64,000 nucleotides of DNA from Pseudanabaena sp. PCC 7367 (GTDB taxonomy: Bacteria; Cyanobacteriota; Cyanobacteriia; Pseudanabaenales; Pseudanabaenaceae): contig NC_019701.1 in assembly GCF_000317065.1 (NCBI RefSeq), positions 1,054,001 through 1,118,000 of the forward strand, read 5' to 3'. Positions 3,362-63,939 of this stretch are shown here, one piece after another (positions within the stretch are counted from its first letter, which is position 1; the number at the start of each line of letters is the position of its first letter). The position numbers and the translations under genes are program-made. The notes below the pieces were generated by a model. It made no database searches. It was not told where the DNA came from and saw only the letters and a program-made list of their open reading frames with translations.

Positions 3362-3978
3362 TCCTTGCCCTCCAGTTTGTTACGATTTGTCAATTTTACC
3401 GATTCAGCATTGGCAGATTACCATCTAAAATCTCCCAAAGCTAGAGCCCTAAAGACAGTAATACATTTTGGGGTGGCAAACGCATTTTCTTTTATCTTTA
3501 CCTTTCCAATGAGCCAGCTAACCTGATATGCAGCTATTTTCAGATCGCGGCTTTTTAGCTAATTGAGCTACTTGAAATCACAATATGCAAACTAACTAAA
3601 GCAGTGTCAAGAGACTTGCTGGGCGGGAATATCGATCGATTAGCTCCAAATATTGCTGCTTATTAATATCAACCTTGTACAATATCTCGCTTCAGAAAAC
3701 CCTAATCAAGAGAATATCAAGGCTTCAGCATTTTAGTTGTATATCACACTAACTAATCAAGCCGATCGATATATTGAATATCAATGTAGATTGAATATCA
3801 ATGTAGTTGGTATTGGTCTCGGAACCGATGCCACCACATTTTTAGTCAAGAGCGATCGCCATGCTCAAATCCTAGACTCGCTGCTTAAAGTTTGGTGCCA
3901 ATGCCCAGGCTCAGCTCGTTAATACTATGCCTAAATTTACAATTAAGTTGAAAATATAAAGTTGAGAATATAAATAAA
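3362..3978. other. Intergenic region, 617 bp
   Basis: AT-rich DNA between the 727-codon gene and the tRNA. It contains a perfect 17-bp tandem duplication (ATTGAATATCAATGTAG at 3773-3789 and 3790-3806). A short open frame at 3737-3922 has neither a convincing start nor protein-like composition. The promoter of the minus-strand 727-codon gene should lie just above 3361. No RNA gene was recognised. Confidence 0.6.
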
Positions 3979-11642: not shown

Positions 11643-14600
11643 TTACCGCATACCTACTTGAGGGGCGATCGCCAATGTAAACCAAAAGGTCGTACCCTGT
11701 CCCGCTTCGTTGGCAACGCCAATTTGCCCCCCGTGGGCAGAAATGATCTGGCGGCACAAATATAAACTAAGACTAATGTTGGTGGAATATTTAGAGCGAT
11801 CGGTTTTGGCATAACGCTGAAATAATTTGCCACAATCGGCCATGCCCAGGCCATTATCCTTGATCTCGCAACGTAGCATTGCACCCTGCTCAGTTTCGAT
11901 CGGTTGAGCATCCAGGGTTAGCTCCATCCCAGGTGGATTATGCTTAAGTGAATTGGTAATCAAATTTTCATACACCCGCACAATTTGTCCCATATCCGCA
12001 GCCACACTGGGCAGGTCATCGCTAATCAGGTTATTCAGCTTGGCCTGGTTTTTGCTCAGCAGCGGCTCCAAATCAGCCAGCACCGCCTTGACCAAACAAG
12101 CAATCCCCACTTTGCCGCTCTTTAGTGCCACATTACCGGCTTCCAGGGCATGGGCATCGAGCAATAGGTTCAGCATTTCCAATTGGCGATCGCTACTTTG
12201 CACCATCCGATCGAGAATTTTCAGCGGCAACAAAAGATGGGTGGGGGTTTTGCTAACTGGTTTTGACTCGGTAGGGGATTGAGGTGGCGGTTGAATTGAA
12301 GTTTGGTTTAGAGTGCCCTGGGCTTGATTAACCTGATTAGTGGTGACATTAACGCTGGGCGCAATAGGAACACAACTTTCAGTGCCTTTTTTAATCAAAT
12401 TACGCAGCAACAATAAATTGCCCATAATTGGCGTGCGCAGGTCGTGGGAGACCGCATGGATAAAAAAGTCTTTTACTTCGCTCAATTCTTGGAGTTCGCG
12501 GTAGCGTTGTTCTAGCTCCTCGGTGCGTTCCTGTACCTGTTGTTCTAGGTTGGCATTAAGATCTTGCACCTGGGCATAGAGTTCGGCCTGTTGGATGGCG
12601 ATCGCTACCTGGGTAGCCAACTTTTCGAGAAAATTGACTTCAAATGTATGCCAATGCCGAGTACCAGTACATTGATGTACCCCCAGGATGCCCATCAGTC
12701 GATCGCCCAACAAAATTGGTACAGTTAGCGCCGCTTTAACTTTACTGCGACGGGCAATTTTAGTGCGATTTGGGGATAGGCTTACCTGCGTCAGATCGTC
12801 AATTATCTCCGGCTTGCCACTGCGGAACATAACTTCTACTTCTTTGGTGAGGGCATCATCGGCTACCCAACCCAAGACTGAAGGCCATTCTAAGTCCACC
12901 GACTCAGCAATCACATGGCTTTGATTTTCACCGTTGGCATAGGCAATAAACACCCGATCGGCAGTCATCATCTGGCGTACTTCAGTAACCGCGGTGTGGA
13001 GGATTTGATCCAGGTTCAGGGAGCGGCGAATTTTGAGGGCAATTTCACCGAGCAAACGATCGCGCTCGATCGCCTCCTTGAGACGGGCTTCGGCCAGTTT
13101 GCGATCGGTAATATCATTGGTCATGGCCAGAATGCAAGACTCGCCATTGAATTCGATCAGTTCAGCAGAAAAAAGAGCCAGCATTGGCTCCCCCGACTTG
13201 CGGCAAAATTCATATTCAACATTGCGAACAAAGCCTTTTTCTTGGAGGGTTTGGCGTAGTTGCAATGCTTCGGCAGGATTGTGCCAAATTCCTAGCTCGG
13301 TGGCAGTATGGTTGATTACTTCATCGCGTTGGTAGTTGGTGGTATCCAGAAATGCCTGATTAATCTCAATAAATTTGCCTTCATTAAAGGTGGAAATGGA
13401 GCAAGAGTCAGGGTTAGAACGAAAGGCCTTGGAGAACATTTCTTCCGACAATCGCAGCGCCCGCTCGGCTTCGACCCGCTCGGTGATATCGCGCACAATC
13501 ACAATTACCTGCTCGTCTTGAAATGGCAGCATCCTGGCTTCAAATATTCTGTCGCAGCCCTGGATCGGCAGGTTATATTCATAGCTAACCAGGGCTTGGG
13601 TGGCGATCGTTTCTTGAATAGCCTGGTGAGTTTTCTTGGCGATCTGGGGTGGTAAAAATTCTTCGATTTGGCGATGCATGAATTGCTCTGGTTTCACAAA
13701 TAGCTCCGAAGTGCTGCCAGAGTGATATTCCAGGACTTGACCCGCTGCATCGAGGCGAAATTGCAAATCGGGAAAGGCTTCAAAGATCGCCCGCAGATTG
13801 GAGGTGGTTTGCAGCAGTTGTTCTTCAATCCGTTTGCGATCGCTGATGTCGTTGATAATTGCCAACATGCAATCGCTATTATGCAGGAAAATTATTTCCG
13901 CTGAAATGAGGCAAGCAATTCGATCGCCTGATTTGGTACATAGTTTCGATTCAAAATTTTTGACTGTTCCTTGGGTTTGGAGTTGGTGACGGAGGCGATC
14001 GCCATCTTCAGGATCAACCCAAATGCCCATGCCAACAAGACTCTGATTAACTAACTGATCGCAGCGATAGCCCAACATTTTGGCTGTGGTATCGTTGACT
14101 TCCAGGATTTTCCCCTCCGTCAGGGTCGCAATCACGATCAGGTTGGGGCTGGAATGGAATGATTTAGAAAATTTTTCCTCCGATCGGCGCAAGGCAATCT
14201 CTGCCTGTTTGCGTTCGGTAATGTCGCGCACAATTACCAATACTTCATCCACACCACTAACCACTACCCTTGCTTCATATTCATGGATGGAGTTGTGTTT
14301 TTCGAGCTGATATTCAAATATCTGGGTTTTACCAGTTTGAAAAGCCCGCTCAATTTGCTCCATGCGGCGATCGGCAATTTCCTGGGGCAAGACATCATGG
14401 ACTTTGTGTCCCAGCATTTTACTTGGGGAGATCGCAAAGTCAGAATCGCGGTGCGCCTTAAAATCCAAATAAGTACCATCGCGGCTAATCCTGAACATCA
14501 AATCGGGGATTGCATCCAATAGGGCTAGGGTTCTGGCCTCATTACGCTGGAGCGCCTCTTGCACCCTTCTTTGGGCGGTGGTCTCACGCACAATCGAGGT

Positions 14601-61136: not shown

Positions 61137-62180
61137 CTAGCTACTCAAAGGCTTGATATAACGAGCCACACCAGCACCGATCGCCCCAAGTTCCGTTAAA
61201 TAGGCGATCGTTTCTTCCGATAAACCAGTACAGAGGTTGAAATGGGCATTGTTTAGTTTAACTGCACTAAAGATCGCCCCGGTGGCATCCACTAATTCAA
61301 AGTTAAGGTTACTGAGGCTGGCAGCATGGAAGTTCGCCCCCTTTAAGCAGGCTTGTCCTAAAACCACCCCTTCCAGGCTACTATCGCGGAAATCCGCACC
61401 CCACAATTCTGCCTTGGATAGATCCGATCTACTAATTTTTGCCCCCTGAAACTTCGCCACCCTCAATATGGCTTGAATAAAACTAGAATCAGAAATCTCT
61501 GCACTATTCAGGTTGGCACCGCGCAAATTAGCATGTTCCAGATTAGTTTGATTTAGCTTTGCTTCGCTGAGATCTGCACCTCTGAGATTGGCGTGGGAAA
61601 GGATCGCCTCACTGAGATCGGCCTTGCTCAAATTACTACCCTTGAGGTGGGCATAGCTGAGGTCCGTGCCGCGCAGTTTGGCTCCCCACAAATTAATGCC
61701 ACTTAAGTTAACCTCACTGAGGTCTGCGCCATTGAGATCCGCACCCCAAATATTTACCTGATCTAGATTGGCTTTAGCTAGGCAGGCTTGGGAAAGGTTG
61801 GCTCCGGCTAGGTCTGCACCAGTTAAATCCGCACCACTTAAGTCGGCCTGATAGAGCTGAGCACCACTAAACCGACCACCAATCAATTTTGCATTGGTAA
61901 ACTTCGCGCCATGTAAGCTAGCAAAACTAAAGGTGGTTTCATCCAGCAGAATCGCATTACTAAAGTTAGCGCCATTTAAATTAGAGCCCTTGAAGATCGC
62001 CCCGGTCAGATCTTGACCACTGAGATCAATGCCACTGAGCTCTGCGTCTGCAAAGAAACGCTCACCGGCGGCATAGAGTTTAAGCAGATTATCAGCTTTT
62101 AATTGGGCTTTTTGCGAATCAGTTGCTTCCTGGGCATCGCTAGCGATCGCCTCATCCATAACAGCTTGTGCAATACTCAT
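61137..62180 (-). CDS. Pentapeptide-repeat protein
   Basis: 347 residues. After a helical N-terminus of about 45 residues, nearly the whole protein is A(D/N)LxX pentapeptide repeats (for example NLNGANFSNAIL, DLSGADLTGADLAGANL, ADLSEAKLNQTNLEHANLRG), which fold as a right-handed quadrilateral beta-helix. A short C-terminal helix region (GLSEETIAYLTELGA) caps it. Such proteins are very common in cyanobacteria; known roles range from DNA mimicry against gyrase to thylakoid functions, and none can be chosen here. It converges with the FKBP gene. Confidence 0.9.
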   Translation of the reverse strand: MSIAQAVMDEAIASDAQEATDSQKAQLKADNLLKLYAAGERFFADAELSGIDLSGQDLTGAIFKGSNLNGANFSNAILLDETTFSFASLHGAKFTNAKLIGGRFSGAQLYQADLSGADLTGADLAGANLSQACLAKANLDQVNIWGADLNGADLSEVNLSGINLWGAKLRGTDLSYAHLKGSNLSKADLSEAILSHANLRGADLSEAKLNQTNLEHANLRGANLNSAEISDSSFIQAILRVAKFQGAKISRSDLSKAELWGADFRDSSLEGVVLGQACLKGANFHAASLSNLNFELVDATGAIFSAVKLNNAHFNLCTGLSEETIAYLTELGAIGAGVARYIKPLSS

Positions 62181-62614
62181 TAGTGATTATATTAACAGCG
62201 ATAAACATCTAGCCTCTGGCAAATTTTTAGTTGAGTGCGGTTTGCGGTTGGATTAGACAGTGATGTTAATTATGAGCTTGACTTTAGGCTGACACATGGT
62301 TATTGACTTTGATGACTTTAAAAAAAATTTATTGTTGCGATCGCTTCTGCAAGGCTTAAATAGGCCTTTTGCCAGAGCTAATCTAGCAACGGGGAAATGC
62401 GAATGCCGTCACTCCAACTTACTAACACTTAGCTTAGCTTGATTCCCTTCCCCCCTGCTTATTTATACTAGTTTTGAATCCCTCATGATCTGGTTTTCGT
62501 CCAGCTACATTGTTGACGGTGAACTCACCATCACTAAGGCGATGCGATTAGATTATAAATGTCAACTAATCGCCATCAACTCACCAGATTAATTGTCGTC
62601 TAAAAATACTCAAA
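62181..62614. other. Intergenic region, 434 bp
   Basis: Between the pentapeptide gene and the tRNA fragment. A short open frame of about 49 codons starting near 62297 has no ribosome site and is not supported. Promoter of the pentapeptide gene is expected just above 62180. Confidence 0.5.
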
Positions 62615-62672
62615 GCGGATGAAGAGATTCGAACTCTCGACATTCTCCTTGGCAAGGAGACGCTCTACCACT
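62615..62672 (-). other. 3' fragment of tRNA-Gly(GCC), probable attachment site
   Basis: Read on the minus strand, the sequence from the D loop (AGTGGTAGAGC) through the anticodon arm TCTCC-TTGCCAA-GGAGA (anticodon GCC) and T arm to the 3' acceptor CATCCGC is that of tRNA-Gly(GCC). The 5' acceptor strand and the D-stem 5' half are missing: the upstream bases do not pair with CATCCGC. A 3' tRNA fragment next to a tyrosine integrase is the expected product of site-specific integration at a tRNA gene, with the intact copy at the other end of the element. Confidence 0.8.
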
Positions 62673-62674
62673 AT

Positions 62675-62700
62675 GCTCTCAGGGCTGCGCCCTTTCGAGC
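62675..62700. repeat. Inverted repeat between tRNA fragment and integrase gene
   Basis: GCTC-TC-AGGGC-TGC-GCCCT-TTC-GAGC forms a two-part stem. It lies 3 bp past the tRNA fragment and about 100 bp before the integrase start. It could belong to the integration site or act as a terminator; no T-run follows on the plus strand. Confidence 0.5.
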
Positions 62701-62796
62701 AGGGGGATACATAGCTTTTTAGTTACCCGAATAATCGTAGCAAATCCTACCCAAATCAGCCAATTTCTACCCTTATTGGTACGGAATTGGTACGGG

Positions 62797-63939
62797 ATGA
62801 AACCTCCGAAAGGCAGTGTAGCTATAGAGAACAGGGATAATCGCATACGTTTACGCTGGAGTTTTAACGGTGAGCGCTATTGTTTATCACTTGGATTAAA
62901 CTATACTCAAATAAATCTTAAAGCCGCTCAACAAGTTGCTAACCAGATTGAGCTAGACATACTAAGTGGAAACTTTGATTTATCTCTAAACAAGTATAAG
63001 CCCGCAAAGATAAGTTTTGCTAATAAATCAAAGCTTTCTAAAAATCCAAATCTCTTAGAGGTTTGGGATGTATGGGTTAATAGCCTTAAATTAACATCCA
63101 GGACTAAAAACAGGCATTACATGCAAATTAGAGGCCTGATTCGTAAGGCAAACCCAAAGCTAAAAGATCCCAAGTGGTTTACCAAAATTGATACCTTATC
63201 GCCAGAGATCTGGAATTCAAGGCTAAGTTACTTAAGTTCATGCCTGGATTGGTGTATTGATAAAGGATATGCAGCAGAGAACCCATACAAAGGACTTAAG
63301 CGCAGAAAATCAGCCACCAAAGCAGCTAAACCTTTCACCAAACAAGAGATCAACTCAATTATTCTGGCCTTCAGGACTGACCAATTCTGCCCCCAATCAT
63401 CAAGCTATAAGCATAGCTACTATGCAGACTATGTTGAATTTTTATTTCTAACTGGTTGTAGGCCTGCTGAGGCGATCGGGCTCCAGCGCAAGCATATTGA
63501 CCTTGAGCGCAATGAGATAGTCATATGCTCAGTATTGGCTAGAGGTGATAATGGCGAAACTAGCTCTAATAAACGAGTCCGCAAAGAGACTAAAACAGGC
63601 AATATCCGCTACTTGACTATGACTGAGCGATTAAGACAAATCATGGAATCAAGGTGCGCCGATCTACAGCCCGATTGCCTTGTTTTTAGGTCACCTAAGG
63701 GCTTAGCGATCAATGACAATAATTTTACTCGTAGACAATGGAAACCAGTTCTAGAGGGGTTAGGCATTGAGTATCGGAAGCCATACACAACCAGGCATAC
63801 TATGGCCTCGATCGCAATTGAACAGGGCATACCCTTAACGGGGGTAGCATATTTACTTGGCCATAAAGATACAACAATGGTTATGCGTACCTACGGCCAT
63901 ATGATTAACCGTCCCAGCTTGCCTGAGATAGATATTTAG
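62797..63939 (+). CDS. Tyrosine-type site-specific integrase
   Basis: 380 residues from ATG 62797 (a TTG at 62776 would add seven). The N-terminus (SVAIENRDNRIRLRWSFNGERYCLSLGL) is an arm-type DNA-binding domain, followed by a core-binding domain at about 85-175 and the catalytic domain. Catalytic residues: Arg 222 (TGCRPAEA), Lys 266 (KTGNIRYL), Arg 333 in YTTRHTMAS where Tyr replaces the usual first His of HxxR, His 356 (LGHK) and the nucleophile Tyr 366 (RTYGH). All are in place, so it should be active. It reads away from the tRNA-Gly fragment, as expected for the first gene of an integrated island or prophage that runs past the right edge of the window. Confidence 0.9.
   Translation: MKPPKGSVAIENRDNRIRLRWSFNGERYCLSLGLNYTQINLKAAQQVANQIELDILSGNFDLSLNKYKPAKISFANKSKLSKNPNLLEVWDVWVNSLKLTSRTKNRHYMQIRGLIRKANPKLKDPKWFTKIDTLSPEIWNSRLSYLSSCLDWCIDKGYAAENPYKGLKRRKSATKAAKPFTKQEINSIILAFRTDQFCPQSSSYKHSYYADYVEFLFLTGCRPAEAIGLQRKHIDLERNEIVICSVLARGDNGETSSNKRVRKETKTGNIRYLTMTERLRQIMESRCADLQPDCLVFRSPKGLAINDNNFTRRQWKPVLEGLGIEYRKPYTTRHTMASIAIEQGIPLTGVAYLLGHKDTTMVMRTYGHMINRPSLPEIDI

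Follow-up and report, generated by a model that had tools for sequence, protein, structure and literature searches.

The window analysed here is a stretch of 64,000 nucleotides (C2:1054001-1118000) from the 4.89 Mb, two-contig genome of Pseudanabaena sp. PCC 7367. Near its right edge it displays a tRNA fragment, a short tandem repeat and a tyrosine integrase gene. The features that delimit the locus are given below, L011 position 1 being C2:1116001.

Window 61137-62180, minus strand: left chromosomal flank, a pentapeptide-repeat protein gene outside the element.
Window 62608-62672, minus strand: left attachment-site core, a perfect 65-bp direct repeat of C2:1135070-1135134 (L011:19070-19134), from a genome search with the fragment.
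Window 62614-62672, minus strand: displaced 3' fragment of tRNA-Gly(GCC), tRNA positions 72 to 14, from the Rfam tRNA match and alignment to the intact tRNA.
Window 62775-62795 (L011:775-795), plus strand: left copy of the 21-bp tandem repeat ATTGGTACGGAATTGGTACGG, a presumed integrase arm-binding pair that ends one base before the integrase ATG.
Window 62797-63939 (L011:797-1939), plus strand: tyrosine integrase, 380 aa, with Arm-DNA-bind_2 and Phage_integrase domains, reading into the element.
L011:19027-19047, same orientation as the left copy: right copy of ATTGGTACGGAATTGGTACGG, beside the right core.
C2:1135076-1135147, minus strand: intact tRNA-Gly(GCC) holding the right core copy.

The sequence-only reading had placed a piece of tRNA-Gly(GCC) beside an intact integrase gene pointing into unseen sequence, and both parts were borne out. 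The Rfam tRNA model matches window 62622-62677 on the minus strand with 39.5 bits (gathering score 29), and the fragment corresponds to the intact tRNA from position 72 to position 14; ARAGORN reports no complete tRNA there. The integrase frame is open to 63939, and its start was set at the ATG at 62797, conserved in the family, in preference to an upstream TTG at 62776. Box II of the enzyme reads Y-T-T-R instead of the usual H-x-x-R and is invariant in ten aligned relatives. In IMG/VR the integrase family was found on one contig only. A cyano_het_sRNA match inside the gene was dismissed, with a score of 19.8 against a gathering score of 35.7.

The same reading had predicted a full minus-strand tRNA-Gly(GCC) and a repeat of a core of roughly 58 bp within about 200 kb to the right. 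Both were found 18.46 kb away on the same strand, the core being a perfect 65-bp repeat that consists of 59 tRNA positions and 6 bp past the tRNA 3' end. The two core copies, 18,462 bp apart, agree at 100% over the 65 bp, an identity far beyond chance, and the genome search returned no second complete tRNA-Gly(GCC) besides the one at C2:1135076-1135147. When the flanks were joined in silico with the interval removed, one complete tRNA-Gly(GCC) resulted; with the repeat at the far end, this makes the fragment one end of a tRNA-inserted element, as had been proposed. At the right end, the tRNA 5' end and its upstream region are host DNA adjoining ribH, and in G004 and G035, two relatives that lack an integrase of this family at that place, ribH likewise adjoins the 5' end of a tRNA-Gly(GCC) gene that is uninterrupted. 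The earlier reading would have been undermined by the same fragment in genomes without an insertion, and none of the 57 relatives searched had it as a full match without one. A shorter fragment (tRNA-Gly(GCC) positions 26-72, 96% identical) lies at a contig end in another genus (G013:C8:112-158, L184) and is noted as putative evidence that this tRNA gene was hit by a further insertion or keeps the remnant of one.

We observed a tandem 11-bp repeat (ATTGGTACGG twice) just inside each end; the rest of the element has no copy of it. A sister element at tRNA-Pro, described below, has a different pair, TGGCAAGAAAACTGGCAAGAT, with one copy at either end and none at any other place within it. In the six Pseudanabaena elements that were delimited, TTGGTAC-type pairs are likewise confined to the two ends; in some of them one copy is a variant or one unit lacks an exact match to the word. 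The distance from the far pair to the anticodon centre, calculated by one formula, is exactly 64 bp in 5/5 measured Pseudanabaena elements, which occupy three tRNA genes, and 66-67 bp in the window element. Upstream of the integrase, 55/76 loci of the wider family have a repeat with a period of 10-13 (p <= 0.05 against shuffles), mostly 11-12 among the significant ones. Such a period is in keeping with one turn of the helix and with the presence of an Arm-DNA-bind_2 domain in the integrase. By their position, exclusivity and conservation, the 11-bp pairs are presumably integrase arm-binding sites.

The integrative element between the core copies, 18,462 bp in length, contains the following genes besides the integrase.

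L011:2095-2931, plus strand: ORF of unknown kind, 278 aa.
L011:3175-5400, plus strand: VapE-type replication protein.
L011:5969-9382, minus strand: HsdR.
L011:9421-10614, minus strand: HsdS.
L011:10611-12095, minus strand: HsdM.
L011:12292-15312, minus strand: UvrD/helicase-IV-like protein.
L011:16280-16981, plus strand: ORF of unknown kind, 233 aa (orf233).
L011:17110-17979, plus strand: ArdC-like protein with a peptidase M78 motif.
L011:18184-18438, plus strand: Rho_N-domain ORF, 84 aa.
L011:18517-18987, plus strand: ORF of 156 aa (orf156).

HsdR, HsdM and HsdS together form a complete type I restriction-modification operon (L011 5969-12095, minus strand). The adjoining UvrD/helicase-IV-like protein matches phage and homing endonuclease families over about residues 405-470. 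We considered orf156 as a general marker of tRNA ends and dropped it, as its relatives elsewhere have no tRNA or fragment nearby.

The same chromosome carries a second element of this kind.

C2:3985402-4017422 (L013, L078, L159): sister integrative element, about 32 kb, in tRNA-Pro(GGG).
C2:3985555-3986709: sister integrase, 60% identical to the window integrase, beside a tRNA-Pro 3' fragment.

Its 47-bp core recurs at C2:4017376-4017422 within the intact tRNA-Pro(GGG), and its cargo comprises TonB, FecCD, TonB-dependent receptor and MFS genes (iron uptake, transporters); an IS21-like transposase pair is also present. A right-end module of orf233, ArdC, Rho_N and orf156, distal to the integrase, is common to both elements (L011:16280-18987; C2:4014547-4017249). 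Since the module is 91-99% identical at the amino-acid level though the integrases are 60% identical, its presence suggests an exchange between the tRNA-Gly and tRNA-Pro elements. Noncoding sequences, 73-78% identical, lie at the backbone/cargo boundaries of both elements (L011:5884-6055, L011:15407-15941, C2:3993250-3993504, C2:4013825-4014363) and might promote cargo exchange.

Altogether, we hold with high confidence that the 18,462-bp element was inserted into tRNA-Gly(GCC) by its own tyrosine integrase, through recombination within the anticodon arm that rebuilt the tRNA. It is a tRNA-targeted tyrosine-integrase genomic island, bounded by the tRNA and a displaced fragment in the same orientation, with the integrase between them, and its removal restores the gene. 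No virion structural gene such as a prophage would carry was recognised among the scanned ORFs with Pfam or PHROGs. That the island is now stranded, with good attachment sites kept and the ability to excise lost, is possible though doubtful: no excisionase was recognised in the element and some relatives have decayed fragments or frame-broken integrases, whereas here the two core copies match perfectly, the integrase frame is unbroken and retains its conserved residues, and the left and right arm pairs do not differ. It is unlikely that the element is a PICI-like phage satellite dependent on a helper phage for packaging, even though an integrase and a VapE-type primase/helicase in less than 20 kb are satellite-like and phage DNA helicase/primase families are among the matches of the replication protein, along with IMG/VR contigs (32-37%). 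Pfam and PHROGs scans gave no match to packaging-interference, terminase, capsid-size or AlpA-like proteins among the scanned ORFs, four of which are of (nearly) unknown function, and the sister element, with its iron-uptake and transporter genes, is about 32 kb long. ArdC-like anti-restriction proteins are often found on plasmids and conjugative elements, and the ORF at L011:17110-17979 could thus point to an integrative mobilizable element that conjugates via a helper. We regard this as quite unlikely, given that the main ORFs of the element have no relaxase or type IV secretion domain; the same result sets it apart from an integrative conjugative element. A chance or unrelated tRNA pseudogene with the integrase as an unlinked neighbour has next to no probability, tRNA pseudogenes existing in general and nothing more speaking for it, against the 65-bp identity at the far end with strand and order unchanged, the tRNA genes or fragments beside most related integrases, and the complete tRNA-Gly(GCC) given by the joined flanks.

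For insertion by the element's own integrase, the sequence shows the route. Positions 14 to 72 of the tRNA and a further 6 bp came in with the attP of the element; on insertion the tRNA gene was made whole again at the right end, keeping the host's own promoter, and the old 3' half was left at the left end beside the integrase. The enzyme presumably binds core sites in the anticodon arm and the paired 11-bp arm sites inside each end. Reversal should release an 18.5-kb circle, leaving an intact tRNA gene, and the circle may replicate briefly via the VapE-type protein. We infer that the element is mobile; what the host gains from it is probably the restriction of phages, provided by the type I restriction-modification cargo.

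A search of named genomes for relatives of the integrase returned 73 loci, nearly all cyanobacterial. For most of the integrases, a tRNA gene or tRNA fragment is found no more than about 450 bp away, and four configurations were distinguished. In configuration A, which accounts for most rows, the integrase is on the 3' side with the intact tRNA adjoining; these rows are mostly classed by position alone, a distal fragment having been seen within the 10 kb covered for three only. In configuration B the integrase is on the 5' side with the 3' fragment adjoining (window, sister, L066, L068, L089, L122, L124, L134, L136, L138), and three such loci have an intact tRNA-Thr at the far end. The fragment and not the intact gene adjoins the window integrase because the integrase sits on the 5' side of the tRNA. 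Configuration C, seen in Pseudanabaena and Stenomitos, has the integrase on the 5' side with the intact tRNA adjoining; what is repeated there is either the 5' half of the tRNA together with 40-85 bp of upstream sequence or the entire tRNA, again with sequence upstream of it. Since upstream sequence is part of the block, the copy that now precedes the tRNA is the one brought by the element. In configuration D the integrase is on the 3' side with a 5' fragment adjoining (L140, L143). The shared blocks (14-72, 23-72, 24-72, 26-72 and 29-76, together with 5' blocks that end at 45-47) have about positions 29-45 in common, which maps the predicted crossover to the anticodon arm, as for an anticodon-loop (A-site) integrase.

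Two loci show further arrangements. Within 330 bp upstream of the L051 integrase (G002:C3) lie, in order, an intact tRNA-Asp, an arm-like pair, an inverted tRNA 5' half and another arm-like pair, an order that resembles an attP junction kept next to a target that is still intact. Three copies of the tRNA-Val(TAC) 3' part in one locus (L072:3763-3817, 3918-3972, 13365-13419) suggest that this gene was the site of insertion more than once.

When 69 integrases were placed in a maximum-likelihood tree, the window fell in a well-supported 20-row clade that also holds every C and D row and the majority of the B rows. The tree requires at least three changes of the carried half and five of the integrase side; the doubtful configurations of L051 and L137 inflate the side count, which may be three. 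The window integrase and a Pseudanabaena tRNA-Gly integrase (L046) are 60% identical and occupy the same tRNA gene with opposite halves carried. We think it probable that this clade, fixed on the anticodon arm, repeatedly switched tRNA orientation and supplied half, some elements bringing a new tRNA promoter, with the window and Pseudanabaena tRNA-Gly elements showing opposite states at the same gene. A switch of carried half inside one close integrase clade is a more notable result than the element itself.

The element is of a familiar kind and is a further example of it. As in the Islander islands (PMC4383910), it has an intact tRNA at one end, a displaced 3' fragment at the other, a tyrosine integrase between them and a crossover in the anticodon region; among the 3919 islands of that collection, the fragment is a 3' one in 3760 and a 5' one in 159, and the site is anticodon-centred in 2083. 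The window element has the fragment beside the integrase and the intact tRNA at the far end, whereas most relatives here have the intact gene beside the integrase. With the Pseudanabaena elements at tRNA-Val and tRNA-Gly(GCC) (L069 to L074) it shares an integrase 60-62% identical, the ATTGGTACGG arm pair at both ends and the side of the tRNA; those elements differ in carrying the tRNA 5' half with 40-85 bp of the upstream promoter region, or the whole gene, and in having the intact tRNA beside the integrase. The pTN3-like archaeal integrases (PMC8371274) also restore a recombinant tRNA gene and use the 5' half, like the Pseudanabaena relatives, whereas the window element uses the 3' half. An essential tRNA gene that relies on a mobile-element promoter is seldom encountered in bacteria (reviewed in PMC8371274). 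As judged from sequence, the window tRNA keeps its host 5' end and upstream region, and the relatives of configuration C are exceptions to the bacterial rule.

A restriction system is carried here by a presumably mobile element with precise bounds, in a cyanobacterial family that branched early, and the attachment sites, arm sites and integrase of the element are defined sharply enough for direct tests. The wider clade forms a natural series on how integrases come to use another target or the opposite orientation at the symmetric anticodon arm; it also bears on the fate of an essential tRNA gene placed under a mobile-element promoter.
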